Origin: Myceligenerans pegani
Lineage (GTDB): Bacteria; Actinomycetota; Actinomycetes; Actinomycetales; Cellulomonadaceae
Direction of reading: 5' to 3'
Assembly: GCF_014892515.1 (NCBI RefSeq)
Contig: NZ_JADBGR010000051.1
Span: 1-39,885, forward strand
Length of the DNA stretch: 39,885 bases
Below, piece by piece: positions 21,476 through 39,885 of this stretch (the first letter of the stretch is position 1; the number at the start of each line of letters is the position of its first letter). The position numbers and the translations under genes were made by a program. The notes below the pieces were generated by a model. It was not told the origin of the DNA. It saw nothing but the letters and a program-made list of their open reading frames with translations, and made no database searches.

Positions 21476-21566
21476 TGGCGTGTGGAACGAGCCGACCGGT
21501 CGTGCGGCGGCGATGCCTTGCGGCGCGATCCGCCGAGACGGGGTAGCGCTTCGGGCCTCGGCCGGG

Positions 21567-21590
21567 TACCGTCCATCGAAGCGCTTCGAC
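21567..21590 (+). promoter_or_regulatory. GH3 promoter -10 and LacI-type operator O1
   Basis: The -10 TACCGT (21567-21572) is followed after 2 nt by ATCGAAGCGCTTCGAC (21575-21590), which matches the perfect palindrome found upstream of the ABC importer at 15 of 16 positions. A weaker copy centred on AGCGCT at 21545-21550 (window 21540-21555, 11 of 16) overlaps the -35 region. Binding at the start point would block transcription of the GH3 gene. The rest of the 238-nt gap (21434-21671) holds the terminator described separately and nothing else clear. Confidence 0.65.
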
Positions 21591-21671
21591 TGATCGCCGG
21601 CAGAGAGCGTCACCCTGCCGCGCACCGGTCGCATCCGAGCCGCACCGTCGCGGCACCCGAAGGAGGAACCC

Positions 21672-24197
21672 ATGGACGTGTCGCCCTTCCGCGATCCCGC
21701 GCTGCCCATCCCCGTGCGCGCCCGTGACCTGCTCGGCCGCCTCACCCCGGAGGAACGGGTGGCGATGCTGCACCAGCATCAGCCGGTCGTGGACCGGCTG
21801 GGGCTCGGCCCGTTCCACACCGGGTGCGAGGCGCTGCACGGCGTCGCCTGGCTGGGCCGCGCCACGGTGTTCCCGCAGCCGGTCGGCCTGGCCGCGACCT
21901 GGGACCCGGAGCTGGTGCGCCGCGTCGGCGACGTCGTCTCCACCGAGGTCCGCGCCAAGCGCGCGGGAGACCCGTCGGTGAGCCTGAACGTCTGGGCGCC
22001 GGTCGTGAACACGCTCCGGCACCCGGCCTGGGGCCGCAACGAGGAGGGGTACTCCGAGGACCCGCACGTCACCGCGCACCTCGCCACGGCCTACTGCCGC
22101 GGCCTGCGCGGGGACCACGAGCGGGTCTGGCGGACCACGCCCACGCTCAAGCACTTCCTCGCCTACAACAACGAGACCGACCGCTCGTCCACGAGCTCGA
22201 ACCTCACCCCGGTCACGCTGCACGAGGAGGAGCTCCCCGCCTTCCGCGAGCCGATCGAGGCGGGCGTGGCCGCGGGTGTCATGCCCGCGTACAACCAGGT
22301 CAACGGCACCCCGGCGCACCTGCAGGCCGAGCTCTTCGCCGAGCTGCGCTCCTGGACCGGAGGGTCGGTCGCGCTCGTGTCCGACGCCGCCGCCCCGATG
22401 TTCGTGGTCACCGTGCAGCGCGCCGCGGAGGATCGCGCCGCCGGGAACGCCGCGCTCGTCCGCGCCGGTGTCGACTCGTTCACCGACGACGACACCGACT
22501 CCGCCCCCACCGTCCGGCGCCTCCAGGAGGCCCTGGACCATGGCCTGCTCACCCTGGACGACGTCGACCGCGCCGTGCTGCGCCTCCTCGAGCTGCGCCT
22601 GCGCAGCGGCGAGTTCGACGGCGACGCCGACCCGTACGCCGGCATCACGCCGGACCACCTCGACCTGCCCGAGCACCGCGTCCTCGCGCGGGAGGCGGTG
22701 GCCCGCTCCGTGGTCGTGCTGCGCAACGACGCGGGCGTGCTGCCCCTGCCGGCCACGGGCTCGGTCGCCGTCGTCGGGCCCATGGCCCAGGCCGTGCTCA
22801 CCGACTGGTACTCGGGCACCCCGCCGTACGCGGTCACCCCGGCGGACGGCCTGCGCGCCGTACTCGGCGCGGACCGGGTGGTGATGGCCGACGGCGCCGA
22901 CGTCGTCGCCCTGCGCGCGACGAACGGGCAGTACGTCTCCGTCACCGCGGACGGCGCGACGGTGGTCGCGGACTCGGCCGGGGCCGGCCGCGGCGCACGC
23001 CTGTCCGTCACGGACTGGGGCGGGGGAGTGCTCACGTTGCGCTCGGGGGCGTCCGGCCGCCTGCTCACCGGTGGCGCCTGGCCGCTGCGGGCCGACGCCG
23101 AGCGGGTCGGGGGCTGGGAGGTCCAGGAGAGCTTCCGCCGGCACGTGCACGACGACGGTTCGTGGTCCCTTCTGCACCTCGGCTCCGGCCGGTGGGTGCG
23201 CGTCCAGCGCGGCACCGGTCTGGTGTGTGCCGACGGGCACACGCTCGCGGATGCCGAGCGGTTCGTGGCGCGCGTCCTGGAGTCCGGCGCGGCGCGGGTG
23301 GCCGAGGCCGCGGCGGCGTGCGACGCCGTCGTCGTCGCCGTCGGGAACGACCCGCACCTGAACGGGCGCGAGACACAGGACCGGCCCGATCTGTGGCTGC
23401 CCGACGCCGCCGTGGAGACGTGGCGCGCCGCCGTCGAGGCCAACCCGCGCGCCGTGCTCACGATCGTGTCGAGCTACCCGTACGTGCTCGGTCCGGGCGT
23501 CGCCGACGCCGCCACCGTGGTGTGGAGCAGCCACGGCGGCCAGGAGCTCGGGCACGGCCTGGCCGACGTGCTGACGGGCGCCGTCGAGCCGTCCGGACGC
23601 CTCGCGCAGACCTGGCCCGCGCGCCCGGAGCAGGCCGGCGACCTCTTCGACTACGACACCCGGCGCCAGCAGGCGACCTACCGGCACCTGCCCGACAGCG
23701 ACGCAGGGGTGCCCGCGTTCGCGTTCGGGCACGGCCTGACCTACTCGGCCGTGTCGTACGGGCGGGTCGCCCTGTCCGTGACCGAGGTCGCGGCCCCCGC
23801 GCCGACGCGTGACCACCCGCCGCTGACGCCGCGCGACCCGGCGGGCCCGGGCGTGGTCACGGCCTCGGTGACGGTGCGCAACACCGGCGACCGGCCCGCC
23901 GAGGAACTGGTGCAGGTGTACTCGCTCGGCGCCCCTGGGACGGACTCGCCCGTGCGGCTCCTGCTCGGCTACCGTCGCGTCCGGCTCGACCCCGGCGAGA
24001 CGGCGTCGGTGGCGGTGCCCTTCGACGTCGCGCGCCTGGCGCTGTGGCACGAGGCCGCGGCGCCGTCGGGCGGGGTGCCGGGCCTGCTTGACGGCGACCT
24101 CCGGGTGCCGGTGGGGACGTACACCGTCGCCGCCGGGGCGTCGAGCGTGGACCTGCCGGTGCGCGGCGAGCTGACCGTGACCGGCCGGGCCGGGTGA
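21672..24197 (+). CDS. GH3 glycoside hydrolase with an internal beta-trefoil-like insertion
   Basis: Cytoplasmic-looking (no signal peptide) exo-beta-glycosidase of 841 residues. The N-terminal TIM-barrel domain carries the GH3 substrate-binding KHF (residues 160-162, TLKHFLAYNNE) and the expected nucleophile Asp238 in LVSDAAAP. The alpha/beta sandwich domain has the VVVLRND start and ETQDRPDLWLPD, which matches the usual acid/base-region motif. A C-terminal fibronectin-III-like domain follows (VTVRNTGDRPAEELVQVYS). Residues ~414-522 interrupt the second domain with repeats such as LRATNGQYVSVTADG, LTLRSGASGRLLTGG and LLHLGSGRWVRVQRG that look like a fascin/beta-trefoil module, where many GH3 enzymes carry PA14. 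Substrate (beta-glucoside or beta-xyloside) cannot be read from sequence. A GGAGGA ribosome site precedes ATG 21672. Confidence 0.9.
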   Translation: MDVSPFRDPALPIPVRARDLLGRLTPEERVAMLHQHQPVVDRLGLGPFHTGCEALHGVAWLGRATVFPQPVGLAATWDPELVRRVGDVVSTEVRAKRAGDPSVSLNVWAPVVNTLRHPAWGRNEEGYSEDPHVTAHLATAYCRGLRGDHERVWRTTPTLKHFLAYNNETDRSSTSSNLTPVTLHEEELPAFREPIEAGVAAGVMPAYNQVNGTPAHLQAELFAELRSWTGGSVALVSDAAAPMFVVTVQRAAEDRAAGNAALVRAGVDSFTDDDTDSAPTVRRLQEALDHGLLTLDDVDRAVLRLLELRLRSGEFDGDADPYAGITPDHLDLPEHRVLAREAVARSVVVLRNDAGVLPLPATGSVAVVGPMAQAVLTDWYSGTPPYAVTPADGLRAVLGADRVVMADGADVVALRATNGQYVSVTADGATVVADSAGAGRGARLSVTDWGGGVLTLRSGASGRLLTGGAWPLRADAERVGGWEVQESFRRHVHDDGSWSLLHLGSGRWVRVQRGTGLVCADGHTLADAERFVARVLESGAARVAEAAAACDAVVVAVGNDPHLNGRETQDRPDLWLPDAAVETWRAAVEANPRAVLTIVSSYPYVLGPGVADAATVVWSSHGGQELGHGLADVLTGAVEPSGRLAQTWPARPEQAGDLFDYDTRRQQATYRHLPDSDAGVPAFAFGHGLTYSAVSYGRVALSVTEVAAPAPTRDHPPLTPRDPAGPGVVTASVTVRNTGDRPAEELVQVYSLGAPGTDSPVRLLLGYRRVRLDPGETASVAVPFDVARLALWHEAAAPSGGVPGLLDGDLRVPVGTYTVAAGASSVDLPVRGELTVTGRAG

Positions 24198-24216
24198 GGA
24201 CGGCAGTGTGCAGGGC

Positions 24217-24258
24217 GTGAGGACCAGGGTGTGAGGACCACGGCATGAGGACCACGGC
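24217..24258 (+). repeat. Three 14-bp tandem repeats before the DUF624 start
   Basis: Units 24217-24230, 24231-24244 and 24245-24258 are near-identical copies of (G/A)TGAGGACCACGGC, and a fourth partial copy begins at the ATG of the next gene. Each copy carries a start-like ATG or GTG and a GAGGA purine tract, so the array repeats a miniature ribosome site. Because 14 is not a multiple of three, only the last ATG is in frame. Confidence 0.8.
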
Positions 24259-24906
24259 ATGAGGATCGACCCCGACAGCCGGAGCGTGCAGGGGCTGACG
24301 ACGTTCCTGCAGTTCGTCGTGCTCAACGTGCTGTACATCGTGGCCTGCCTGCCGGTGGTGACGGCCGGGGCGGCGACCGCCGCGCTCTACGAGGTGGCGC
24401 TGCGGTACGCCGACGAGGAGCGGGGATATCTGATCACGGGGTTCTTCGTCGCCCTGCGCCGCAACCTGTGGCGGGGTACCGCCGTCGGGCTGCTGCTGGG
24501 TGTGCCGGCCGCGATGGCGGCCTTCGCCGCGATCTTCTGGCTCGCGTCCGGCACCGCCCTCGGGTCCGCCGCCGGCACGGTGGCGGTGCTGCTCGTCGGC
24601 TACCTGGTGGCCGCCCTGCTGTACGGTCTGGTGCTGGTCGCCCGGTACGCCGACCCGCTGGGCCGGACGCTGCGCAACGCCCTGCTGCTGCCGCTCGCCG
24701 AGCCGCTGCGCACGCTCGCCCTGCTGGTGCGTCCGGCCGCCACGGTGAGTCTGCTGTACGTGTTCCCGCCGACGGTGGTGCTCGTCGCGACCATCGGATT
24801 CTCGGTGGGCGCCTACGTGGACGCGCTCGTGCTGCACAGCGTCTTCCGGCGGCGGGGCGGCGATCCCACGGCGCTCGACCCGGTCAGCCCGCACTCCGGC
24901 GAGTAG
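24259..24906 (+). CDS. DUF624 (YesL-type) membrane protein
   Basis: The 215-residue protein has five or six hydrophobic helices (FLQFVVLNVLYIVACLPVVTAGAATAALY near the N-terminus). Its sequence pattern around ALRYADEERGYLITGFFVALRRNLWRGT is typical of DUF624. Such genes very often sit beside LplABC-type oligosaccharide importers and glycosidases (for example yesL in Bacillus subtilis), but their role is unknown. Here it follows the GH3 gene by 61 nt on the same strand and faces the importer operon. It is therefore probably expressed from operator O1. The start is fixed by frame at ATG 24259. Confidence 0.85.
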   Translation: MRIDPDSRSVQGLTTFLQFVVLNVLYIVACLPVVTAGAATAALYEVALRYADEERGYLITGFFVALRRNLWRGTAVGLLLGVPAAMAAFAAIFWLASGTALGSAAGTVAVLLVGYLVAALLYGLVLVARYADPLGRTLRNALLLPLAEPLRTLALLVRPAATVSLLYVFPPTVVLVATIGFSVGAYVDALVLHSVFRRRGGDPTALDPVSPHSGE

Positions 24907-24961
24907 GAGAAGGTCGCGCGGGCAGGCGCTGCCGTCGGCCGCACCTCGCGCGATCCTGAGA

Positions 24962-25004
24962 CGCGACAAGGCCCGGGCGATCCGATCGCCCGGGCCCTCT
25001 CGCG
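24962..25004. terminator. Bidirectional terminator between convergent operons
   Basis: GGCCCGGGCGAT (24970-24981) pairs perfectly with ATCGCCCGGGCC (24985-24996), closing on CCG. Outer arms CGCGA (24962-24966) and TCGCG (25000-25004) extend the stem across small internal loops. It lies between the ends of the DUF624 gene (+) and the solute-binding protein gene (-). There is no T-run, as is usual in very high-GC genomes. Confidence 0.75.
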
Positions 25005-25031
25005 TGCCGTCCTACCGGTCAGGAGTCCGGA

Positions 25032-26783
25032 TCAGCCGAACTCGTTGGCGACCGCGACGCGGGCGTCGTTCTGTGCCCGGGCGTTGGCCATGTCGACCTC
25101 GAGGACCTTCTCGTAGCCCAGGCCGTTCACCGTCTCCTGCATCTCCGCGAGCAGCGACTCGAACTCGGCGTCGTCCTTGGCGAAGGACATCTTCCAGGAG
25201 TACTCGACGATGCTGGCCTTGATCTGGTTGCGGGCCGTCTCGATCTCCGACTCGTCCGTCGGGGTGATGAAGCTCGCGCCCGGGGCGACCAGCAGCATGT
25301 CGTTGGCCCGCAGGTACTCCATGGTCGTCGTGGCGCCGCCCATGTGCTCGGACCAGTCCTCGGTGAGCGGGTTGGCCGTGGTCTCCTGGTAGCTCGGCCA
25401 GAGCTTGTAGTTGTACGGGTAACCCGTGGTCGGGTCCTCGTCGATCGGCAGGACGGCGGAGAAGTTCAGGGTCGAGACGCCGTCCTTGTACGCGCCGCCG
25501 CCCCAGTCGGCCGGCACGTCCGCGCCGCCCTCCAGGATGGCCTTGCGGCCGAAGTCGGTGAGCTCCGGCCCGTCGGGGCCGTTCTCCCAGGTCAGGCCCA
25601 CAGGACCGGCGGCACCCATGGTCTCCGACGCGCTGGCCTGCACGCCCTCCGGGGAATACAGCCAGTCGATGAACGCGGCGATACGCGCCGGGTCCTCCGC
25701 CTGCGAGCCGATGGCGACCACCTGCTCGCCGCCGTACACCTCGGCGCCGTAGGCGAAGACCTTCTGATCCTGCAGCGGGGCGATCATGAAGCCCTTGCCC
25801 TCGGCCATGTTCTGCTCGGTGTTGTACGCGGACTGGCCGAGCCACGGCCACCAGGACAGCAGCACCTGGCCGTTCTGGTACTTGGTGAACATCGTGTCGT
25901 AGTTCTGCGTGGTCGAATCGGGGTCGACGAGGCCCATTTGGTTTGCCTCGTAGTAGAAGCGCAGGGCGCGCACGTACTGCGAATCCGAGTCGATGATGCT
26001 CTGGTAGTCCGAGCCGTCGGCCTTCGCGAGCACGAACCCCATCTCGTCGTAGCCGTAGAGGGTCGTCGGCTGCTTGCCCATCACCATCATGTTGCCGTCC
26101 CAGTCCTTGAACAGGGAGATGGCGTAGGACGGCTTGCCGTTGTCCGCCTCCGGGTGGGCGTCCTGCATGTCCTTCAGCACCGGCAGGAGGTCCTCGAGGG
26201 TGCCGATCTCCGGGTAGCCGAGCTCGGCGTAGTAGTCCCAGCGCAGGAAGGGACCGAACGTCGGGTCGACATCGTCGTTCGGCTCCGTCGGCTTGACCGA
26301 CGAGAGCTGGGTCGGGAAGCCGTAGACGCCGTCCTTGGACTCGTTGAGGGTCTGGATCGCGGCGTCGTACTTCGGCAGGTGCTCCATGGACTCGTAGTAG
26401 GGCGACATGTCATGGAGCAGCCCACCCTCGACGAGTTCGTCCAGCTTCTCGCCCTTGTCGGTGACGATGAGGTCACCGAGGTCGCCGCCCGACACGCGGG
26501 TGTTGTAGAGCGTGTCACCGCCGCCCGCGACGTTCGGGGCGATGATGTTCAGCTCCATGTTGAACTTGTCCTTGACGATCTTGCCGAACCACCCGCCCTG
26601 GATGCCCTGGTAGTTGGCGAGGCCGTCGAAGACGTCGATGGTGATCGGATCCGCCGCCGACCAGTCCTGGTCGAGTGACGCCGCCTCGGGGTCCTCCGAC
26701 GTCCCCGTTCCCGAGCATGCAGCGAGGGACAGTAGTCCGAGCAGCGGGGCCACCAGCACCGCTACGGCTTTGCGTGATCTCAT
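25032..26783 (-). CDS. Sugar ABC transporter solute-binding lipoprotein (LplA/YtcQ class)
   Basis: Extracytoplasmic oligosaccharide receptor anchored by a lipid. A basic start and hydrophobic stretch (MRSRKAVAVLVAPLLGLLSL) end in the lipobox LAAC with Cys23. The 583-residue length and segments such as DVFDGLANYQGIQGGWFGKIVKDKFNMELN and SPYYESMEHLPKY place it with the large LplA-type family-1 receptors rather than the ~430-residue MalE-like ones. It is the last gene of a permease-permease-receptor operon read leftward. AAGGAG (complement of 26788-26793) lies just before the ATG. The ligand is unknown. No ATPase gene accompanies it. Confidence 0.93.
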   Translation of the reverse strand: MRSRKAVAVLVAPLLGLLSLAACSGTGTSEDPEAASLDQDWSAADPITIDVFDGLANYQGIQGGWFGKIVKDKFNMELNIIAPNVAGGGDTLYNTRVSGGDLGDLIVTDKGEKLDELVEGGLLHDMSPYYESMEHLPKYDAAIQTLNESKDGVYGFPTQLSSVKPTEPNDDVDPTFGPFLRWDYYAELGYPEIGTLEDLLPVLKDMQDAHPEADNGKPSYAISLFKDWDGNMMVMGKQPTTLYGYDEMGFVLAKADGSDYQSIIDSDSQYVRALRFYYEANQMGLVDPDSTTQNYDTMFTKYQNGQVLLSWWPWLGQSAYNTEQNMAEGKGFMIAPLQDQKVFAYGAEVYGGEQVVAIGSQAEDPARIAAFIDWLYSPEGVQASASETMGAAGPVGLTWENGPDGPELTDFGRKAILEGGADVPADWGGGAYKDGVSTLNFSAVLPIDEDPTTGYPYNYKLWPSYQETTANPLTEDWSEHMGGATTTMEYLRANDMLLVAPGASFITPTDESEIETARNQIKASIVEYSWKMSFAKDDAEFESLLAEMQETVNGLGYEKVLEVDMANARAQNDARVAVANEFG

Positions 26784-26793
26784 GACACTCCTT

Positions 26794-26843
26794 TGTGTTG
26801 TTGCTGAACTGTGTTGTCGCTGAACCTTGTGTTGTCGCGGAAC
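26794..26843. repeat. Three tandem 16-bp repeats in the permease-receptor spacer
   Basis: Copies at 26794-26809, 26810-26825 (plus CT) and 26828-26843 share TGTGTTGT(T/C)GC(T/G)GAAC. They fill nearly all of the spacer between the permease stop and the ribosome site of the receptor gene. They are markedly less GC-rich than the surroundings. In the transcribed strand they read as ACAACACA-rich units with little secondary structure. Confidence 0.8.
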
Positions 26844-26847
26844 GCTG

Positions 26848-27771
26848 TCAGCCCTTGACCGCGCCGAGCATGATGCCCTTGACGAAGTACCGCTGGAACA
26901 GCGGGTAGACGAAGATGATCGGCAGCACGACGATCACGGCGATCGTCATGCGGATCGACGTCGGCGTCTGCGTCGTGGCGGCGGACGCGATCGCGCCGAG
27001 GTCGCCCTGCGCGTTCTGTGCCGCCTGAGCCAGGCTGTTGGCCTGGTTGAGATACGTGTAGAGCCTGTACTGCAGCGGGTAGAGCCGCTGGTCCGTGATG
27101 TACAGCAGCGTGTCCTGGAACGAGTTCCACTGGGCCACCGCGGAGAAGATCGCCACGGTCGCGAGGATCGGCGTCATGTTCGGGAGCATGATCCGGAAGA
27201 AGATCGTCACGATCCCGGCTCCGTCGATCTCGGCGGCCTCCTGCAGCGACGCCGGGAGCGACTCCACGTACGTCTTGACGAGGATGATGTTGAACGGCTG
27301 CACGATCGCCGGGAGGATGTAGACCCAGAAGTTGTTGGTCAGCCCCAGCGTGTGGATCGTGACGTACACCGGGATGAGGCCGGCGTTGAAGTACATCGTG
27401 AAGATGACCAGCCGGTACCAGAGGGAGCGATGCCGCAGGCGCTCCTGCGTGAACATGAAGCCGAGGAACGCCGACGCGAGGACGGTGGCCCCGGTGCCGA
27501 TCACGGTGCGGGCGATCGAGACCAGCAGCGAACCCGTCAGCCCCGGCAGGCCGAAGATCTGTGTGTAGTTCTCGAGGTGGATCCCCGTGGGGAACAGGCG
27601 CACGTCGCCGAGCGCGCTGAGATCGTTCGCGCTGATCGAGTTGATGATCAGGTAGTAGAACGGGTAGCCGCACACGAGCGCGAAGAGCACGAATCCGGCG
27701 TAGTTGACGATGGCGAACGCGACGTCGCCGCGCGCGTGGCGCCATGGCGTTCCGGTGTCCTTGGTGGTCAC
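26848..27771 (-). CDS. Sugar ABC transporter permease (LplC/YtcP-like)
   Basis: Inner-membrane channel subunit of a CUT1-type importer, 307 residues with six predicted helices. The conserved cytoplasmic EAA loop for ATPase docking is visible (LPASLQEAAEIDGAGIVTIFFRIMLPNM). So is the subfamily C-terminus QRYFVKGIMLGAVKG. GTTCPTGI-type periplasmic segment (LFPTGIHLENYTQIFG) is also typical. It lies 15 nt after its partner permease and is followed by the receptor gene. The start is the ATG at 27769-27771 with GGAAAGG upstream. Confidence 0.94.
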   Translation of the reverse strand: MTTKDTGTPWRHARGDVAFAIVNYAGFVLFALVCGYPFYYLIINSISANDLSALGDVRLFPTGIHLENYTQIFGLPGLTGSLLVSIARTVIGTGATVLASAFLGFMFTQERLRHRSLWYRLVIFTMYFNAGLIPVYVTIHTLGLTNNFWVYILPAIVQPFNIILVKTYVESLPASLQEAAEIDGAGIVTIFFRIMLPNMTPILATVAIFSAVAQWNSFQDTLLYITDQRLYPLQYRLYTYLNQANSLAQAAQNAQGDLGAIASAATTQTPTSIRMTIAVIVVLPIIFVYPLFQRYFVKGIMLGAVKG

Positions 27772-27786
27772 GACGTCGGTCCTTTC

Positions 27787-28803
27787 CTAGATGATCGACG
27801 TGCCGCGGACGCGCTTGGCGATCGCATTGGCGGACATCAGGAGCGCGAGCGAGATGAGGCTCTTGAGCATGCTGAGGACCGTCGCCAGCGACAGGCTGTT
27901 CCCCGTCATGCCGATGTTGTAGACGTACAGGTCGAGCACCTGGATGTACTCCCTGTTGAACGCGTTCTGGAAGACGTAGTACTGCTCCATGCCGTTGTTC
28001 AGGATGTTGGCGATGGAGAGGATCAGGAGCACCACGAAGGTCGGCAGGAGGTGCGGGAACGTGATGTAGCGCATGAGCTGGAAGCGGCCCGCGCCGTCGA
28101 TCCGCGCCGACTCGTACAGTGCCGGGTCGATCCCCGAGATGGCCGCGAGGTACATGATCGCGCCCCAGCCCACGCCCTTCCAGAGGCTCCAGGCGAGCAT
28201 GGTCAGCCACACGTGCTGGTCGGTGTCCAGGAACTTCATCGGGACGGTGATCAGGCCCCAGTCGTGCAGCGTGGTGTTGACCAGGCCCGACGTCGAGAAG
28301 AGCGAGAACGCGATCATGTACACGAGCACCCACGAGATGAAGTTGGGGAGCGTCGTGAGCGTCTGCACCGTGTTCCGGAACCAGGTGGCCCGGATCTCGT
28401 TCAGGAACATCGCGAAGAAGAGCGGGAGCAGCGACGTCGCGATGCCGAGGAAGCTCATGGCGAGGGTGTTCACCATGACCTGGCCGATCTGCTCGAGCTG
28501 CGTCCTGGACGAGACGAGGATCTCGAACCACTGCAGCCCGACGAACTCGCTGCCGCCCAGACCGAGTGCCGGCTTGTAGTCGTAGAGCGCGGTCACCCAG
28601 CCGAGCAGCGGCAGGTACGAGAAGACGAAGACGAGTACGAGGAACGGACACACGACGAGGAACATGTACGGCGAGGTCTTGCCGTGGGGCTTGGCACCAC
28701 GACGTCTGCCGCGACCACCGCCCGTCAACGCGCCGGCCGGGCCGGTGCCTGGCGGCACGCGCGCGCCGAGCACCTCCCGCGGCGCTCCCTGGGTGAGGCT
28801 CAC
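27787..28803 (-). CDS. Sugar ABC transporter permease (LplB-like)
   Basis: First gene of the leftward importer operon, 338 residues. A basic, Gly/Arg-rich cytoplasmic N-terminus of about 45 residues (GGGRGRRRGAKPHGKTSPY) precedes six helices beginning MFLVVCPFLVLVFVFSYLPLLG. The EAA loop reads IDPALYESARIDGAGRFQLMRYITFPHL. LplB-type permeases pair with LplC and LplA receptors for complex oligosaccharides. The start at 28803 lies about 75 nt after the predicted transcription start inside operator O2. Confidence 0.94.
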   Translation of the reverse strand: MSLTQGAPREVLGARVPPGTGPAGALTGGGRGRRRGAKPHGKTSPYMFLVVCPFLVLVFVFSYLPLLGWVTALYDYKPALGLGGSEFVGLQWFEILVSSRTQLEQIGQVMVNTLAMSFLGIATSLLPLFFAMFLNEIRATWFRNTVQTLTTLPNFISWVLVYMIAFSLFSTSGLVNTTLHDWGLITVPMKFLDTDQHVWLTMLAWSLWKGVGWGAIMYLAAISGIDPALYESARIDGAGRFQLMRYITFPHLLPTFVVLLILSIANILNNGMEQYYVFQNAFNREYIQVLDLYVYNIGMTGNSLSLATVLSMLKSLISLALLMSANAIAKRVRGTSII

Positions 28804-28867
28804 CTGTCACTCCCTCGTGATCGGCCACTTCGATGTGGCGCGAGCGGCGGATCGGAGGCGCCGATCC

Positions 28868-28883
28868 GTCGAAGCGCTTCGAC
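28868..28883 (-). promoter_or_regulatory. LacI-type operator O2, perfect 16-bp palindrome
   Basis: GTCGAAGCGCTTCGAC is its own reverse complement, and the central AAGCGCTT is a classical LacI-family core. It begins 1 nt after the -10 of the leftward importer promoter, so it covers the expected transcription start. The three other copies in the locus are variants of it. Confidence 0.8.
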
Positions 28884-28884
28884 A

Positions 28885-28914
28885 TTGATACCAGACGTAC
28901 GCCTTGCCGTGCAA
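28885..28914 (-). promoter_or_regulatory. Promoter of the LplABC-type importer operon
   Basis: Read on the minus strand: -35 TTGCAC (28909-28914), an 18-bp spacer, and -10 TATCAA (28885-28890), leading into the operator. It is the most canonical promoter of the locus. Confidence 0.6.
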
Positions 28915-28940
28915 TGACCGGCGGTTCACGGTTCGGCAAC

Positions 28941-28990
28941 GGATGCCCCGGGCATCGATGGTGGACGCCCGGGCATCCGGTCGCGACCGG
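28941..28990. terminator. Inverted-repeat cluster downstream of lacI
   Basis: GGATGCCC (28941-28948) can pair with GGGCATCC (28971-28978), giving an 8-bp hairpin that may terminate the leftward lacI transcript about 100 nt after its stop. An overlapping perfect 14-bp palindrome CCGGTCGCGACCGG lies at 28977-28990. The rest of the 28915-29082 gap has a direct repeat GGCGGTGGGGCG at 29044-29055 and 29068-29079, and nothing gene-like. Confidence 0.4.
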
Positions 28991-29082
28991 CGAGACCGCC
29001 GATGGCGACGGGCGACCCTGCGGACGGGGGCGACCTCGCCGACGGCGGTGGGGCGACCACTGCGAGTGGCGGTGGGGCGTCC

Positions 29083-30099
29083 TCAGTCGTCGTCGGCGGC
29101 GGGCCCCGGTGCCGAGCTCTCCCGCTCGGTGAGCACGGGGGCGAGGAGCCTCGTCTCGGACGGCTGCTCGCCGTCGAGCCGGGCCATCACCATGTCGACG
29201 GCGACCCTGCCGATGTCCTCGGCGGGCAGATCGATGCTCGTCATCGCGATGCGCTGGGAGAGGGCGACGTCCGTGGGGCACACCGCGACCACGGACATGT
29301 CGGCGCCGACCACGATGCCCCGGTCGGCCAGCCGGGACAGGACGTGGGGGAGCGCGGCCTCGTTGTGCACGATGATCCCCGTCGTGTCGGGCGCGGTCGC
29401 CAGGAGCGTGTCGACGGCCTCCGACGCGCCCGCCGGCGAGGCGTCGCACGCCTCCACCTTGACCGTCACGTCGGAGGCCTTGGCCTGACCGCGCAGTCCG
29501 CGCATCAGCCGATCGGCGTACGACGTGTGCCGCAGCAGCACCTCGGGCGGGGAGCCGATCAGCGCGACATCGGTGTGCCCCGCCGCCGCGAGATGCCGGA
29601 CGGCGAGCCGGCCGGCGGCCTCGAAGTCGAGGTCGACGCAGCTGAGCCCCTCAGGGTCCTCCGGCAGGCCGATGAGCACGGTCGGCTGCTTGGCGGCGGC
29701 CACCACGGGCACGCGGGGGTCGTCCGCCTCGATGTCCATCATGACCAGGGCGTCCACCATGGAGCCGCCGGTCACGCGGTCGAGGCCGCTCACGTCGTCC
29801 TGGGTCAGCAGCAGGACGTCGTGGTCGAAGTCCCGCGCGCGGGTGACCACGCCCGTGACGAACTGCATGATGACCGGCACGTTCACGCCGACGCGCAGGG
29901 GTGCCATCAGCGCGATGACATTGGTCCGGGCCGAGGCCAGGGCGCGCGCCCCGGCGTGCGGCCGGTAGCCGAGCTTCTCGATCGCGCGCTCGACACGTGC
30001 GCGAGTGGGCGCGGAGATGGGACGCTTGCCCGACAGCACGTAGGACACGGTCGAGGCCGAGACCCCCGCTGCCTTCGCGACGTCGTCGATCGTAGCCAC
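29083..30099 (-). CDS. LacI-family transcriptional repressor
   Basis: A 338-residue regulator with an N-terminal LacI helix-turn-helix (VATIDDVAKAAGVSASTVSY, residues 1-20) and hinge helix (LGYRPHAGARALAS). A periplasmic-binding-protein-like sensor domain follows, with RTNVIALMAP, DALVMMD, the GHTDVALIG strand and MTSIDLPAEDIGRVAVDMV. I placed the start at the GTG complementary to 30097-30099, because AGGAGG lies 6 nt before it and the family N-terminus begins there; a longer frame reaches 30186. It sits between the two operons whose promoters carry the GTCGAAGCGCTTCGAC site and has a copy in its own promoter, so local control and autoregulation are likely. The inducer is not known. Confidence 0.94.
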   Translation of the reverse strand: MATIDDVAKAAGVSASTVSYVLSGKRPISAPTRARVERAIEKLGYRPHAGARALASARTNVIALMAPLRVGVNVPVIMQFVTGVVTRARDFDHDVLLLTQDDVSGLDRVTGGSMVDALVMMDIEADDPRVPVVAAAKQPTVLIGLPEDPEGLSCVDLDFEAAGRLAVRHLAAAGHTDVALIGSPPEVLLRHTSYADRLMRGLRGQAKASDVTVKVEACDASPAGASEAVDTLLATAPDTTGIIVHNEAALPHVLSRLADRGIVVGADMSVVAVCPTDVALSQRIAMTSIDLPAEDIGRVAVDMVMARLDGEQPSETRLLAPVLTERESSAPGPAADDD

Positions 30100-30184
30100 G
30101 GTGTTCCTCCTCGGTCCGGTACCGCGGCGCCCTGTGCGGCGGCAGGTCGTGCGCCCGGCATGTGCCGGCACATCAGTGTGCCGC

Positions 30185-30205
30185 ATGCTAGGGAAGCGCT
30201 TCGAT
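30185..30205 (-). promoter_or_regulatory. lacI promoter -10 and operator O3
   Basis: On the minus strand, TAGCAT (30185-30190) is a good -10. The operator variant at 30190-30205 (ATCGAAGCGCTTCCCT on the minus strand, 12 of 16 positions) lies directly upstream of it, in the -35/-10 spacer. This placement differs from the other three sites and suggests autoregulation. No convincing -35 is seen. Confidence 0.5.
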
Positions 30206-30238
30206 GGAAGGCTAGCTCAATTCGTCTGACCAGGACAC

Positions 30239-30284
30239 TGGACACAAGGCCCTGCAGCGGACTAGCGTGTTGAATCGCTTCGAC
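30239..30284 (+). promoter_or_regulatory. GH42 operon promoter and operator O4
   Basis: The -35 TGGACA (30239-30244), an 18-bp spacer and -10 TAGCGT (30263-30268) are followed immediately by GTTGAATCGCTTCGAC (30269-30284), which matches the perfect palindrome at 14 of 16 positions. The left half is the degenerate one. The arrangement mirrors O1 and O2. Confidence 0.65.
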
Positions 30285-30336: not shown

Positions 30337-32457
30337 ATGATGCCGGGTACCGACGGGTTCGCCGCGCTGGTGGCCGACGGCGGGATCTGCTTCGGCGGGG
30401 ACTACAACCCCGAGCAGTGGTCCCGTGAGGTGTGGCGCGAGGACGCACGCCTCATGCGGGAGGCCGGCGTCAACCTCGTGACCGTCGGCGTCTTCAGCTG
30501 GGCGATGTACGAGCCCACGCCCGGCGCGCGCGAGTTCGACTGGCTGGACGAGGTGCTCGAGGTGCTCCACGGGCAGGGCATCGGCGTGGACCTGGCGACT
30601 CCCACGGCGTCGCCGCCGGCCTGGCTGGGCGTGCGCCACCCCGAGACCCTGCCCGTCGACGCCGACGGGGTGCGGCTCGTGGCCGGCTCCCGCAACCACT
30701 TCAGCCCGGCCTCGCAGGTCTACCGCGACGCCGCGCTCGCCATCACGCGCGACCTCGCCCGGCGGTACGCCACCCACCCGGCGGTGCGGATGTGGCACGT
30801 CGGCAACGAGTTCGGCCAGGTCTGCCACGGGGACGAGGCCGCCGGGCGGTTCCGCGCCTGGCTGCGTGACCGCTACGGCGACGTCGACGGCCTCAACGAA
30901 GCCTGGGGCACCGCGTTCTGGTCGCAGCGCTACGCCTCGTTCGACGAGGTCCTGCCGCCGCGCCGGATGCCGTACCACCCCAACCCGACACAGTCGCTGG
31001 ACTGGCGCCGCTACTCGTCCGACCTGCTGCTGGGCGTCTACCGCGAGCAGCGCGACGCGATCCGCGCCATCGACGTCAGCCGCCCGATCACCACCAACTT
31101 CATGGGCTTCTTCCCGCTCGTGGACTACACGTCCTGGGCGGACGACCTCGACGTCGTCGCCGACGACGCCTACCCCGACCCGGGTGACCCGCACGCCCCG
31201 TCGTCCTCGGCCTTGCGACAGGACCTGATGCGGTCCCTGCGTGGGGGCGAGCCATGGATCCTCATGGAGCAGGCCGCCGGCGCGGTGAGCTGGCGGCCGC
31301 ACAACCTGCCGAAGTCGCCCGCGCGGTCACGGCTGGAGTCGCTGCAGGCGGTGGCCCGCGGCGCGGACGGCATCTGCTTCTTCCAATGGCGCGCATCGCG
31401 CGCCGGAGCCGAGCGCTTCCACTCCGCGATGCTTCCCCACGCCGGACCCGAGACCCGCGTCCACCAGGGGATCCGCCGACTCGGCGCGGACCTCGCGCGC
31501 CTGCGGTCCGTCACGGGCGCACGGGTCCGCGCGCGGGTGGCGCTCCTGTGGGACTGGTCGTCCTGGTGGGCCGCCACCGAGGTGGCCCGCCCGACCGATC
31601 GGCTCGACCCGCTCGAGCAGCTCCGCGCCTGGCATCGCGTCCTGTGGGCCGACGGCGTCGCGGCCGACGTCGTGCACCCCGGGACCGACCTCTCCCGGTA
31701 CGACGCGGTGCTCGTGCCCAACCTGTACCTCATGGAGCCCGCGGATGCCGAGGCACTGACCGCGGCGGTGGAGCGGGGCGCGAGTCTCGTCGTCGGGCCG
31801 TTCAGCGGAGTCGCCGACGCGAACGCCCAGGTGCGCCCCGGCCGCTTCCCCGTCCTGCTCGCCGGCCTGCTCGGCGTGAGCGGCGAGGAATGGGCCCCGC
31901 TGCCCGACGACGGCGTGGACCTGATCCCCTCCGGCGCGTCGCCCGTGGACGGCGCGGGTCCGGCACGGCCGCGCGCCGCCGTCCTGGGCGAACTCCTCCG
32001 GGCCGACGGCGCCGACGTGCTCGCCACGTTCGGCCCGGGACACCTCGAAGGCGCCCCCGCGATCACGCGGCACGCCCCGCACACCGGCGCGCCGGACGAG
32101 GGCTCCGCCTGGTACCTCGGCACGGTGCCCGACGACGACACCCTCGCCGCGGTGCTCCGCGCGGCGCTCGACGCGGCCGGCGTCGAACCCGCCCTGCCCG
32201 GGCGGCCCGGCCGCGACACGCGGCGAACCCCCGGGGACGACGTCGAGGCGGTCCGCCGCGGCGACGTCCTGTTCCTGCTGAACCATTCCGGCGAGCCGGC
32301 ACGCCTCGACGTGCCGGGGAACTGGACCGACCTGCTCACCGGCACGCCCGTGTCGGACGAGGTGACGGTCGGGCCGACCGACGCGGCGGCGCTGCTGCCC
32401 GCGGAGGCCGGGCATCGAGCCCCAGCCGGGCTCGCGAACCAAGGAGATAGGCAATGA
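30337..32457 (+). CDS. GH42 beta-galactosidase
   Basis: Retaining exo-beta-galactosidase acting on short oligosaccharides; 706 residues, no signal peptide, so cytoplasmic. The TIM barrel opens with FGGDYNPEQWSREVWREDARLMREAGVN. The acid/base is Glu158 in WHVGNEFGQ, and the nucleophile is Glu311 in ILMEQAAGAVSWR, both in the standard family context. A trimerisation domain (YDAVLVPNLYLM, GASLVVGPFSGVAD) and a C-terminal beta domain follow. AGGAGGG precedes ATG 30337; a second ATG is the next codon. Its stop overlaps the receptor gene (ATGA), so enzyme and importer are coupled. GH42 substrates include galacto-oligosaccharides; a role on galactosylated xyloglucan fragments is inferred from context. 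Confidence 0.94.
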   Translation: MMPGTDGFAALVADGGICFGGDYNPEQWSREVWREDARLMREAGVNLVTVGVFSWAMYEPTPGAREFDWLDEVLEVLHGQGIGVDLATPTASPPAWLGVRHPETLPVDADGVRLVAGSRNHFSPASQVYRDAALAITRDLARRYATHPAVRMWHVGNEFGQVCHGDEAAGRFRAWLRDRYGDVDGLNEAWGTAFWSQRYASFDEVLPPRRMPYHPNPTQSLDWRRYSSDLLLGVYREQRDAIRAIDVSRPITTNFMGFFPLVDYTSWADDLDVVADDAYPDPGDPHAPSSSALRQDLMRSLRGGEPWILMEQAAGAVSWRPHNLPKSPARSRLESLQAVARGADGICFFQWRASRAGAERFHSAMLPHAGPETRVHQGIRRLGADLARLRSVTGARVRARVALLWDWSSWWAATEVARPTDRLDPLEQLRAWHRVLWADGVAADVVHPGTDLSRYDAVLVPNLYLMEPADAEALTAAVERGASLVVGPFSGVADANAQVRPGRFPVLLAGLLGVSGEEWAPLPDDGVDLIPSGASPVDGAGPARPRAAVLGELLRADGADVLATFGPGHLEGAPAITRHAPHTGAPDEGSAWYLGTVPDDDTLAAVLRAALDAAGVEPALPGRPGRDTRRTPGDDVEAVRRGDVLFLLNHSGEPARLDVPGNWTDLLTGTPVSDEVTVGPTDAAALLPAEAGHRAPAGLANQGDRQ

Positions 32458-33758
32458 AGCACAAGCGGACGATGACCGTCGTGGCGGCCGCGATGACCGG
32501 ATCCCTGGCCCTGGCCGGCTGCACCGGCCAGACCGCCGGCGGCGGCGACACGGACGACAGCACGCTGACGATCTGGCACTACGAGAACGACGACTCGGCG
32601 ATGGGCCAGGCCTGGGCCGAGGCCATCCGGATCTTCGAGGAGGAGAACCCGGACGTCACCGTCGAGGTCGAGAAGCAGACGTTCGAACAGATCCAGAAGA
32701 ACGCCAAGATCGTCCTCACCGGCGACGACGTGCCCGACGTCATGGAGTTCAACAAGGGCAACGCGACCGCCGGCCAGCTCGCCGCCCAGGGCCTGCTGAC
32801 CCCGCTCACCGACCAGGCCGCCGAGCGCGGCTGGGACGAGACGCTGACCGGCTCGCTGGCCACCACGGCCAGGTACGACGAGCAGGGCCTCATGGGCTCC
32901 GGCGAATGGTACGGGGTCCCCAACTACGGCGAGTTCGTCGGCGTCTACTACAACAAGGACATGTTCGCCGAGCACGGCCTCGAGGAACCCACCACCCTCG
33001 AGGAGTTCGAGGACGTCCTGGCCACCTTCCAGGAGGAGGGCATCACCCCGCTGGCCGAGGCCGGCGCCGAGTACCCGCTGGGCCAGCTCTGGTACGAACT
33101 CGTGCTCGCCTACGGCGACCGAGCTCTCGTGGACGACTACCAGCTCTTCGCGAACGACGTCGACTTCCACGGCGAGGCGATGACCCAGGCCACCGAGAAG
33201 CTCGACGAATGGATCGAGAAGGGCTACATCGCCTCCGACTCCGCGGCACTCACGGCCGAGGACATGGGCGTCTCGTTCATCGACGGGACCTACCCGATCA
33301 TGGTCAGCGGCTCCTGGTGGTTCGGCCGCCTCGCGACCGAGGTCCAGGCCGACTGGGGTCAGTTCAACTTCCCCGGCAACGAACTGCACCCCGGATCGTC
33401 GGGCAACCTCTGGGTCGTCCCGGCGAACGCGGACTCCCCGAGCCTGGCCGAGGAGTTCATCGACATCACGCTGCGACCCGAGGTGCAGAACGTCCTGGCC
33501 GCCGAGGGCGGCCTGCCCGTGGCCGGCGACGCGTCGGTCATCGACGACGAACGCACGCGCGAGCTCACCGAGAACTTCCAGGCGATCCTCGACGACGACG
33601 GTCTCGCGTTCTACCCCGACTGGCCGGTGCCCGGCTACTACGACGTGATCGTCAGCCAGCTCCAGTCCCTCGTGAACCGGTCCAAGACGCCCAGCGAGGT
33701 GCTCGACGGCCTGCAGAGCGCGTACGACGAGGGCAAGGCCGACCTGCTCGATGGCTGA
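32454..33758 (+). CDS. Sugar ABC transporter solute-binding lipoprotein (MalE-like class)
   Basis: A 434-residue receptor whose signal sequence ends in the lipobox LAGC (Cys23), so it is a membrane-anchored lipoprotein. Family-1 features are TLTIWHYENDD at the mature N-terminus, VEKQTFEQIQKNAKIVLTGDDVPDVMEFNKGN, YGVPNYGEFVGVYYNKDMFAEHGLEEPTTLEEFEDVL and a C-terminal AYDEGKADLL. It overlaps the GH42 gene by 4 bp and the next permease by 8 bp. It belongs to a different receptor class from the one in the leftward operon, so the two importers probably bind different ligands or ligand sizes. Confidence 0.94.
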   Translation: MKHKRTMTVVAAAMTGSLALAGCTGQTAGGGDTDDSTLTIWHYENDDSAMGQAWAEAIRIFEEENPDVTVEVEKQTFEQIQKNAKIVLTGDDVPDVMEFNKGNATAGQLAAQGLLTPLTDQAAERGWDETLTGSLATTARYDEQGLMGSGEWYGVPNYGEFVGVYYNKDMFAEHGLEEPTTLEEFEDVLATFQEEGITPLAEAGAEYPLGQLWYELVLAYGDRALVDDYQLFANDVDFHGEAMTQATEKLDEWIEKGYIASDSAALTAEDMGVSFIDGTYPIMVSGSWWFGRLATEVQADWGQFNFPGNELHPGSSGNLWVVPANADSPSLAEEFIDITLRPEVQNVLAAEGGLPVAGDASVIDDERTRELTENFQAILDDDGLAFYPDWPVPGYYDVIVSQLQSLVNRSKTPSEVLDGLQSAYDEGKADLLDG

Positions 33759-34725
33759 CGGCACCAACATCCTCACGGCACGGCGCTCGCGGGCGGAGCA
33801 GCGCCCGCGAGCACCGCGCCGCCGCCGGGCGGCCTGGGTGGGCTACCTGCCCTACCTGCTGCCCGGCGCGGTCGCGTTCGCCGTCGTGATCGGATACCCG
33901 CTGCTCACGAACGTGTACTTCAGCCTGTTCAAGTGGCGCGGGGGCATGGCGCCGCTGCGCTGGAACGGGCTCGGCAACTACGCGGACCTGCTGGGCGACG
34001 ACCAGTTCTGGACGTCGTTCGCGAACTCGGTGGCCATGATCGTCGCGATGGTGCTCGTGCCCACGCTCGTCGGGCTGGTCCTCGCGGCGGTGCTGTTCGA
34101 CTACCTCGGACGGCGGTTCGGCGCACGGGTCTCGTCGGTCCTGCGAGCCACGTACTACCTGCCGCAGATCCTTCCCGTCGCGGTGGCCGGCGTGCTGTGG
34201 AACTGGATCCTGAACTCCCAGACCGGCGCGCTCAACACGATCCTGCGCGGCATGGGCATCGACTCCCCGCCCAACTGGCTCGGCGATCCCGCCACCGCGC
34301 TGCCGTCCGTGATGCTCGTGCTGATCTGGGTCCAGATCGGCTACCCGGTGGTCATCTTCATGGCCGCCCTGCAGCGCGTGGACCCGGAGCTCTACGAGGC
34401 GGCCGAACTCGACGGCGCCGGGTGGTGGCACCGGTTCCGGGCCATCACCGTGCCCCAGATCCGGCCGGAGACCTTCGTGGTCACCTTGACCTGCACGGTG
34501 GCCGCGCTCAAGGTGTTCGCGCCGATCTACGTGCTGACGCGCGGCGGCCCGGAGAGCTCGACCCTCGTACCGAGCTACTACTCCTTCCTGAGCTTCTTCG
34601 ACAAGTCCCAGGTCGGGTACGGAGCCGCGATCGCCACGGTGCTCACGCTCGTGATCGTGGGGGTGGCCGTGATCATCCTCGGCCTGCAGGGCCGGGCGGA
34701 ACGACGCGAGCGAGAGGGGATCTGA
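33751..34725 (+). CDS. Sugar ABC transporter permease (MalF-like)
   Basis: CUT1 importer membrane subunit, 324 residues. A basic cytoplasmic N-terminus (RRSRAEQRPRAPRRRRAAW) precedes six helices starting YLPYLLPGAVAFAVVIGYPLLTNVY. The EAA loop is VDPELYEAAELDGAGWWHRFRAITVPQI. It starts inside the end of the receptor gene (8-bp overlap) and is followed 1 nt later by its partner permease. Confidence 0.95.
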   Translation: MADGTNILTARRSRAEQRPRAPRRRRAAWVGYLPYLLPGAVAFAVVIGYPLLTNVYFSLFKWRGGMAPLRWNGLGNYADLLGDDQFWTSFANSVAMIVAMVLVPTLVGLVLAAVLFDYLGRRFGARVSSVLRATYYLPQILPVAVAGVLWNWILNSQTGALNTILRGMGIDSPPNWLGDPATALPSVMLVLIWVQIGYPVVIFMAALQRVDPELYEAAELDGAGWWHRFRAITVPQIRPETFVVTLTCTVAALKVFAPIYVLTRGGPESSTLVPSYYSFLSFFDKSQVGYGAAIATVLTLVIVGVAVIILGLQGRAERREREGI

Positions 34726-34726
34726 C

Positions 34727-35611
34727 ATGGCAGTCGCCACACCGACGCGCGCGCCCGAGGTGCGCCGCACCGCCGTCGACTCCCGCTACCGCCGTGGCGC
34801 CGGCCGTTGGCTGGTGCTGGCCGCGGCCGTCGTCGTCGGGCTCGCGATCCTCGCGCCGTTCGGGATCATGCTGCTCAACGCGGTCAAGTCACCGCAGGAC
34901 TACTCGGCCAACGGGCCGCTGTCCCTGCCGACCGGCATCTACCTCGACGGGGTGCTCGCCTTCTGGGAGCGCACCGAGTTCCCGGTGAAGCTCTGGAACT
35001 CCGTGTTCATCTCGGCCGTCGTCGCCGTGCTGGGGGCGCTGCTGTCGCTGCTCAACGCCTACGCGATCGGCATCGGCCGGGTGAAGGGGCGGCTGTGGAT
35101 CGTCACGCTCTTCCTGCTGGCGAACATGCTGCCGCAGGAGGCCCTGATCTACCCGCTGTTCACGATGGCGCAGTCCGTGGGCCTGTCGAACTCGCAGTGG
35201 TCGGTGATCATCATCTTCACTGTCATCCAGTCGGCGTTCGGCACCTACCTGCTGGCCTCCGTGCTGGGTACGTTCCCGCCAGCACTCCTGGAGGCCGCGG
35301 CGCTCGACGGCGCGAGCCGGTGGCGCATCCTCTGGCAGGTCGTGTTCCCGATCGTGCGGCCGACCCTGTCGGTCCTCATGATCTTCTTCTTCATCTGGAC
35401 CTGGAACGAGTTCTTCATCCCGCTCGTCATGCTGACCACCAACGACACCCAGACCATCCCGATCGCCCTGGCCTCCCTGCAGGGGGACCGGATGATGGAC
35501 GCACCCACCATCAACGCGGGGACGCTCGTCTCCCTCGTGCCCGCCGTCGTGTTCTTCCTCATCTTCCAACGCACCCTGACCCGGGGCGTGACCGCCGGGG
35601 CGGTCAAGTGA
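34727..35611 (+). CDS. Sugar ABC transporter permease (MalG-like)
   Basis: Second membrane subunit, 294 residues, six helices. The EAA loop reads FPPALLEAAALDGASRWRILWQVVFPIVRPTLS, and the end (FQRTLTRGVTAGAVK) is the usual MalG-family terminus. No ATP-binding gene lies in the operon or anywhere in the window. In actinobacteria one MsiK ATPase often serves several CUT1 importers, so this pair probably uses such a subunit from elsewhere. Confidence 0.95.
   Translation: MAVATPTRAPEVRRTAVDSRYRRGAGRWLVLAAAVVVGLAILAPFGIMLLNAVKSPQDYSANGPLSLPTGIYLDGVLAFWERTEFPVKLWNSVFISAVVAVLGALLSLLNAYAIGIGRVKGRLWIVTLFLLANMLPQEALIYPLFTMAQSVGLSNSQWSVIIIFTVIQSAFGTYLLASVLGTFPPALLEAAALDGASRWRILWQVVFPIVRPTLSVLMIFFFIWTWNEFFIPLVMLTTNDTQTIPIALASLQGDRMMDAPTINAGTLVSLVPAVVFFLIFQRTLTRGVTAGAVK

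Positions 35612-38483: not shown

Positions 38484-39885
<1,402 letters not shown>

Follow-up and report, generated by a model that had tools for sequence, protein, structure and literature searches.

A candidate LacI-type repressor and its 16-bp operator in a putative xyloglucan regulon of Myceligenerans pegani and other actinobacteria

The locus and its four operators

We analyzed a stretch of 39,885 nucleotides from Myceligenerans pegani (contig NZ_JADBGR010000051.1, positions 1 to 39,885; hereafter the window), in which the gene of a LacI-family regulator, lacI, lies among those of two ATP-binding cassette (ABC) importers, A and B, a DUF624 membrane protein and enzymes of the glycoside hydrolase (GH) families 3, 42 and 31 (Table 1). 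The original prediction, made from the letters of the sequence, held that a 16-bp palindrome at four promoters defines a local regulon of this LacI protein. We found all four sites at the predicted positions and with the predicted match counts, and domain searches gave the genes listed in Table 1.

The perfect copy of the operator, GTCGAAGCGCTTCGAC, is an even palindrome with a central CG, as the rule for LacI-family operators has it (PMC4052901; here and below, statements on published work refer to those parts of the cited papers that treat the point). The sites at the GH3, importer-A and GH42 promoters follow the pattern (G/A)T(C/T)GAA...TTCGAC, and the imperfect site at lacI reads AGGGAA...TTCGAT. 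A scan allowing up to three mismatches gave 4 matches in the window against 0.69 expected, a number reached by 1 of 100 shuffles; the fourth match, at 30921, lies inside GH42, is probably due to chance and was excluded from the counts, and the lacI site, with four mismatches, falls outside this set. The GH3 promoter and operator of the window recur in locus L063 of a relative; a half-site-like GTAGCGCTTCGG 5′ of GH3 (about 21543-21554) is not kept there as such and was rejected.

The operator had been predicted to start 0-2 nt after the -10 hexamer at the GH3, importer-A and GH42 promoters, and the gaps measure 2, 1 and 0 nt. For the promoter of GH42 and importer B, we scanned 45 loci of relatives (L061-L105), 33 of which have a site inside the scanned stretch: TGGACA-N17/18-TAGCGT, followed by the operator at 0-1 nt, was found in 15 of the 33 and TAGCGT in 18. 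Other sites depart from this geometry. In a set of 93 one-directional sites, 59 of them from L106-L140, TANNNT started most often 22 nt before the site (20 cases, 19 of them in L106-L140), which places the beginning of the operator about 16 nt after the -10, and TTGA was found at -46 in 19 of the 93. Both placements, next to the -10 and about 16 nt after it, would fit the action of a repressor. In Caldicellulosiruptor bescii, the sites of all 12 LacI/DeoR-family regulators are located in 5′ untranslated regions or over promoter elements (PMC8579813).

The imperfect site at lacI has counterparts in relatives and is a putative autoregulatory site, a feature of 72% of the studied LacI regulators (PMC4052901). 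In 9 of the 45 loci L061-L105, an intact-core counterpart and the GH42-side operator are 78-79 bp apart, and a tenth (L072) has a changed-core counterpart; 7 more loci have pairs at 89, 90, 208 or 251 bp, and the remaining ones showed no operator pair in the scanned stretch, the scan being based on fixed coordinates and unsuited to loci with lacI elsewhere (L077, L082, L083). A repression loop may form where the two operators between lacI and the GH42/importer operon keep a fixed spacing (78-79 or 89-90 bp). Pairs of perfect operators, 24 to 61 bp apart, were also seen 5′ of the importer-B binding protein gene in L106, L107, L109, L111, L113, L116 and L136. Between the lacI promoter and start codon, the window contains an inverted repeat, GGCACA-N4-TGTGCC (30167-30182), whose pattern is present in 9 of the 45 loci as well; it is possibly a second operator or a leader hairpin.

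The start of lacI is probably the GTG at 30099 and not the first start of the open reading frame at 30186, because of the coding score and the limits of the ortholog matches. GH31 matches the Escherichia coli YicI structures with 963 bits, and the best Protein Data Bank (PDB) matches of GH3 are termed beta-xylosidase, with the isoprimeverose-producing enzyme 5yot also matched. The DUF624/MusI-type gene starts 61 bp past GH3, and the two are probably cotranscribed. About 600 bp past GH31, a GH1-family gene (38652-39884) reaches the contig end. In two relatives, the importer-A binding protein genes form tandem pairs (L063:13320-16855, L066:17182-20763).

Table 1. Operators, promoters and genes of the locus, in window coordinates
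Feature	Position	Strand	Basis and remarks
Operator at GH3	21575-21590	.	ATCGAAGCGCTTCGAC, 15/16, read from sequence; 2 nt past -10 TACCGT (21567-21572)
GH3 beta-glycosidase, putative regulon member	21672-24197	+	Pfam PF00933/PF01915; NCBIfam matches all below cut-off
DUF624/MusI-type membrane protein	24259-24906	+	Pfam PF04854; NCBIfam MusI_fam 85.9 bits, under cut-off 160
Importer A large solute-binding protein, 583 residues	25032-26783	-	No Pfam match; PDB profile match 9pmy only
Importer A ABC permease	26848-27771	-	Pfam PF00528
Importer A ABC permease, first gene	27787-28803	-	Pfam PF00528
Operator at importer A	28868-28883	.	GTCGAAGCGCTTCGAC, 16/16, perfect; 1 nt past -10 TATCAA (minus strand)
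Importer-A promoter	-35-like TTGCAC 28914-28909, -10 TATCAA 28890-28885	-	18-nt spacer; from sequence; recurs in L063, L066
LacI-family protein, putative repressor	29083-30099	-	Helix-turn-helix domain, Pfam LacI PF00356, 64 bits (cut-off 27); periplasmic-binding-protein-like effector domain, Peripla_BP_3 PF13377, 90.7 bits (cut-off 26.5); probable GTG start 30099
Imperfect operator at lacI	30190-30205	.	AGGGAAGCGCTTCGAT, 12/16; one-base overlap with -10-like TAGCAT (30190-30185, minus strand)
GH42-operon promoter	30239-30268	+	-35 TGGACA 30239-30244, 18 nt, -10 TAGCGT 30263-30268; kept in 15 relatives
Operator at GH42	30269-30284	.	GTTGAATCGCTTCGAC, 14/16; abuts -10 TAGCGT, 0-nt gap
GH42 beta-galactosidase	30337-32457	+	Pfam PF02449, 471.6 bits
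Importer B solute-binding protein	32454-33758	+	Pfam SBP_bac_8/SBP_bac_1; homologs in 54/80 LacI loci
Importer B ABC permease	33751-34725	+	Pfam PF00528
Importer B ABC permease	34727-35611	+	Pfam PF00528
GH31 alpha-xylosidase, YicI type	35667-38039	+	NCBIfam alpha-xylosidase NF007940, 1233 bits (cut-off 606); homologs in 74/80 LacI loci

The operator in relatives and at unlinked genes

With the LacI protein as query, a scan of named genomes gave 289 relatives, of which the best 80 were used; the motif had no part in their choice. They belong to Myceligenerans, Promicromonospora, Cellulomonas, Oerskovia, Isoptericola, Microlunatus, Actinoplanes and others. The operator was found exactly in 49 of the 80 loci, with at most one mismatch in 73 and with at most three in 79, so the site is conserved at orthologous loci across several actinobacterial genera. 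The 1,601,861 bases of these loci contain 83 exact sites, whereas 60 palindromes with shuffled half-sites gave a mean of 0.017 (maximum 1). Using gene calls from a simple codon-position script rather than annotation, we placed 151 of the 153 scored sites (at most one mismatch, or two with intact core) between genes, and 184 of 195 when the set was enlarged by the window, two loci of our own genome and 36 unlinked stretches selected on their motif. Across the 80 loci, tblastn detected homologs of GH31 in 74, of GH3 in 58, of the importer-B binding protein in 54, of GH42 in 28 and of importer A in 6, and 33 loci have permeases less than 45% identical to those of importer A beside the same LacI (L066 has both kinds).

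In 23 whole genomes with the LacI locus, the motif with at most one mismatch occurred 79 times and the reversed control 9 times (G004:C32:609 and matches not listed individually fall outside the places examined). A phylum-wide sample had the exact operator in 12 of 296 genomes, our own included. Of the 15 places outside our genome, two (L279, L280) are coding and come from outside the class. The remaining 13 are next to the gene of a LacI homolog (43-50% identical), of the importer-B binding protein or of GH3, and two of these 13 (L288, L289) are likewise from outside the class. The pairing of this LacI protein with this palindrome, put forward in the original prediction as an inference, is thus well supported by comparison as a putative binding relationship.

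Three positions of the recognition helix set the operator specificity of LacI proteins. In our protein, the helix reads VSASTVSYVLSG and the triad is A-S-Y, a combination unique among the 44 LacI-type helix-turn-helix domains of the genome (in six paralogs that escaped the first pattern, the domain was inspected by eye); one other protein, the closest paralog (L037), has R-S-Y. No triad was obtained from 6 of the 80 orthologs, and in the other 74 S-Y is constant, the first residue being A, T, P, V, M or N. The R-S-Y paralog is preceded by three GAACCGGTTC-centred sites (L037:1316, 1444, 1461; G000:C56), which suggests that the first residue of the triad bears on the central operator bases. A copy of GTCGAACCGGTTCGAC before a second GH31 (C72:16112, L143:6113) has the CCGG centre seen before L037 and was therefore excluded; together with the L037 sites, it perhaps represents a sister regulon with changed central bases.

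Contrary to the original prediction, the regulon extends beyond the locus: a purely local set is ruled out by unlinked operators at GH74 and GH5-CBM46 genes of the same genome and by those in relatives. The operator C72:37817 lies between a transporter-like gene and a divergent GH74-CBM2 gene, whose product matches PDB xyloglucanases (E 2.9e-286 to 6p2o), and two sites 113 bp apart (C46:24231 and 24344) precede the gene of a GH5-CBM46 protein that resembles GH5_4-type cellulases and xyloglucanases. CBM46 enzymes act on xyloglucan. Of 16 occurrences of the 10-bp core GAAGCGCTTC in our genome, 15 were examined (C100:21387 was left out); 6 are coding and 9 intergenic, and 6 of the latter belong to the regulon set. 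Among the 36 unlinked places fetched from relatives, 9 are coding and 27 intergenic, and 20 of the 27 adjoin GH74 (4), GH5 (5), GH3 (5), GH12 (5) or GH42 (1). The GH42 place (L188) has a changed core; all 19 intergenic places with an intact core adjoin GH74 (4), GH5-CBM46 (5), GH3 (5) or GH12 (5), the GH12 label of L204 being given by its likeness to the scanned L201. Several of the 19 are orthologs and represent fewer than 19 independent events. In a motif-blind test, 9 of 10 near-full-length GH74 genes, including our own and those of close relatives, had a site with at most three mismatches 150-227 bp before the start of the match (the piece L241, a continuation of L222 with no upstream sequence, was excluded from the 10).

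Substrate, repression and competing explanations

The substrate of the regulon is very probably xyloglucan, because a YicI-type GH31 alpha-xylosidase, assigned by homology, is present and the set of GH31, GH3, GH42 and ABC importer is that of Ruminiclostridium cellulolyticum. The families of a beta-galactosidase, a GH3 enzyme and an oligosaccharide importer are all represented, with putative specificities. For the importer-A binding protein, a single-sequence search of PDB gave no match, and a profile of 8 sequences gave one chain at E up to 1, 9pmy (E 5.7e-4). In a 2025 preprint, this chain is Athe_2052 and is presented as the first xyloglucan-oligosaccharide binding protein of an ABC importer to have its structure solved (PMC12710961). 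The assignment of the importer-B binding protein is weak.

Taken together, the sites, their conservation and the gene content make it highly likely, as far as sequence comparison goes, that the LacI protein of the window is the repressor of a xyloglucan regulon with operators in cis and trans. Without the sugar, it would bind GTCGAAGCGCTTCGAC-type operators at or just past the -10 of the GH3-MusI, importer-A and GH42-importer-B-GH31 promoters, block initiation there and limit the expression of its own gene. The same operator would in trans cover the GH74 endo-xyloglucanase and the GH5-CBM46 enzyme, both probably secreted. A breakdown product of xyloglucan, which may be an oligosaccharide, isoprimeverose or a released sugar, would free the operators from the repressor; the secreted enzymes would then cleave the polymer, the oligosaccharides would enter through the ABC importers, and GH42, GH31 and GH3 would dismantle them inside the cell.

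Several observations count against this interpretation. The excess of operator matches within the window alone is modest, and the case for the operator therefore rests on comparison; many of the unlinked sites come from closely related genomes and do not count as separate events, and one of the 80 loci (L089) lacks a site within three mismatches. Random scatter across the genome had been named in advance as evidence against the regulon: the near-exact sites are not scattered in this way, but in our genome the loose matches, with three mismatches, number 118 against 129 for the reversed control and the bare core 16 against 25. Three of the 9 intergenic cores lie near a glmM-like gene, a GH6 cellulase and unrelated genes, and the core by itself is therefore not enough to tell regulators apart. 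The paralog L037 is close, and one of its upstream sites, TGTGAACCGGTTCGAC, shares the right half of the operator. Among the 27 intergenic unlinked places, 7 with a changed core (L206, L210, L213-L217) are next to genes for a GDSL lipase, a pectinesterase or a CE2-type esterase, to other genes or to none. Because a divergent gene lies within 500 bp at 10 of the 19 intact-core places (L184, L185, L192-L194, L196, L201, L202, L204, L207), and our own GH74 site is likewise between divergent genes, the target named there is a choice. One GH74 copy (L240) is without an upstream site within three mismatches. Finally, GH3 and GH5 enzymes act on other beta-glucans too, and the GH3 of the window has no clear enzyme-level assignment.

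Some of these points would suit a regulon that is real but serves another alpha-xyloside or a beta-galactoside, as in isoprimeverose scavenging or the use of galactooligosaccharides, rather than polymeric xyloglucan: GH42 and GH3 are broad families, the GH3 and importer-B binding protein assignments are weak and no inducer is assigned. We consider this unlikely, as the same operator is found at GH74 in several genomes and also at GH5-CBM46 and GH12, and the sole PDB profile match of the importer-A binding protein is a xyloglucan binder. The presence of GH31, GH74 and GH5-CBM46 likewise makes a regulon for galactosides only improbable.

It is very unlikely that the sites belong to CebR/CelR, the cellulose/cellobiose repressor, or to another LacI paralog and the locus to a general beta-glucoside regulon. 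The genome has many LacI-type proteins to choose from, the CebR/CelR sites TGGGAGCGCTCCCA share the central GCGC (PMC5332605), and a xyloglucanase of Actinosynnema mirum is thought to be under CelR (PMC3377646). Our own GH6 cellulase is moreover preceded by ATGGAAGCGCTTCCAG (L144:9511; G000:C52:177510), which has the same 10-bp core as the operator. The motif-blind test nevertheless separates the two kinds of site: the operator with at most three mismatches was upstream of 0 of 7 GH6 cellulases, 4 of which carry TGGnAGCGCT(T)CCA-type sites (TGGnAGCGCTTCCA; two of these share the core), and the reverse holds at 9 of the 10 GH74 genes. The GH6 sites likely represent a separate cellulose regulon. 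An TGGGAGCGCTCCCA-type site was not found at the window promoters, the nearest paralog has differently centred sites of its own, and the operator accompanies the ortholog of this LacI in nearly all loci. That the palindromes are a product of chance or of high-GC DNA, to which the modest window excess and the loose-match and core counts would point, has a negligible probability given the shuffled-palindrome control, the strong enrichment of exact and near-exact sites, their intergenic placement and their conserved promoter positions in orthologous loci.

Breadth of the regulon and known systems

Beyond the repressor itself, we give about an even chance to a wider scenario of a xyloglucan regulon shared broadly among actinobacteria, in which the repressor and its nearly invariant 16-bp operator are fixed, importers and GH3 are exchanged between lineages, GH74, GH5 or GH12 xyloglucanases are recruited in trans and the lacI-GH42 operator pair may loop. 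Xyloglucan is a major hemicellulose of plant walls, and the regulators named for it in Gram-positives and Thermotoga are a clostridial two-component system and a predicted Thermotoga LacI protein in the cited sources. The present analysis names a candidate regulator for xyloglucan use in soil actinobacteria, together with its candidate operator and genes, proposes a sugar for importers and hydrolases that would otherwise be generic, and supplies about 80 natural repressor-operator pairs for studies of LacI specificity. In full-text literature, with figure motifs and most subscription papers outside its coverage, we found no description of this regulator or motif, nor the exact string. The mechanism is that of an ordinary LacI sugar regulon; the assignment and its breadth are new as far as searched.

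The gene set is closest in description to the cluster of R. cellulolyticum, where uptake of xyloglucan oligosaccharides by an ABC importer and their degradation by cytoplasmic GH42, GH31 and GH3 (beta-galactosidase, alpha-xylosidase and beta-glucosidase) were shown experimentally and extracellular xyloglucanases include Xgh74A (PMC4780118). Regulation there is by XygS/XygR, a positively acting two-component system (cited in PMC10766802 and PMC8579813), whereas here a LacI-type repressor is proposed. GloR of Thermotoga maritima is, like our protein, a member of the LacI family and is predicted to regulate an ABC importer of xyloglucan oligosaccharides together with cel74 (PMC3750489); it belongs to another phylum and a local glo locus, its effector is unassigned in that account, and the likeness drawn here is one of description. 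The actinobacterial CebR/CelR systems share with ours the LacI family, a palindrome with central GCGC and the combination of importer and hydrolases (PMC3377646, PMC5332605), but have the 14-bp TGGGAGCGCTCCCA, cellobiose as inducer and cellulases as targets, where we find flanks GTC...GAC and xyloglucan-type genes. An AA-N-CG-N-TT core near polysaccharide hydrolases is also known from PMC3377646; that motif has A or T at a place where ours has G (T, A or C in variants), is tied to cellulases and is given no regulator in the part concerned. The alpha-xyloside locus of C. bescii resembles ours in combining an ABC importer, AxuABC, with a cytoplasmic alpha-xylosidase, XylS, and differs in its regulators, two of the AraC family being predicted there (PMC8579813) and one of the LacI family here.

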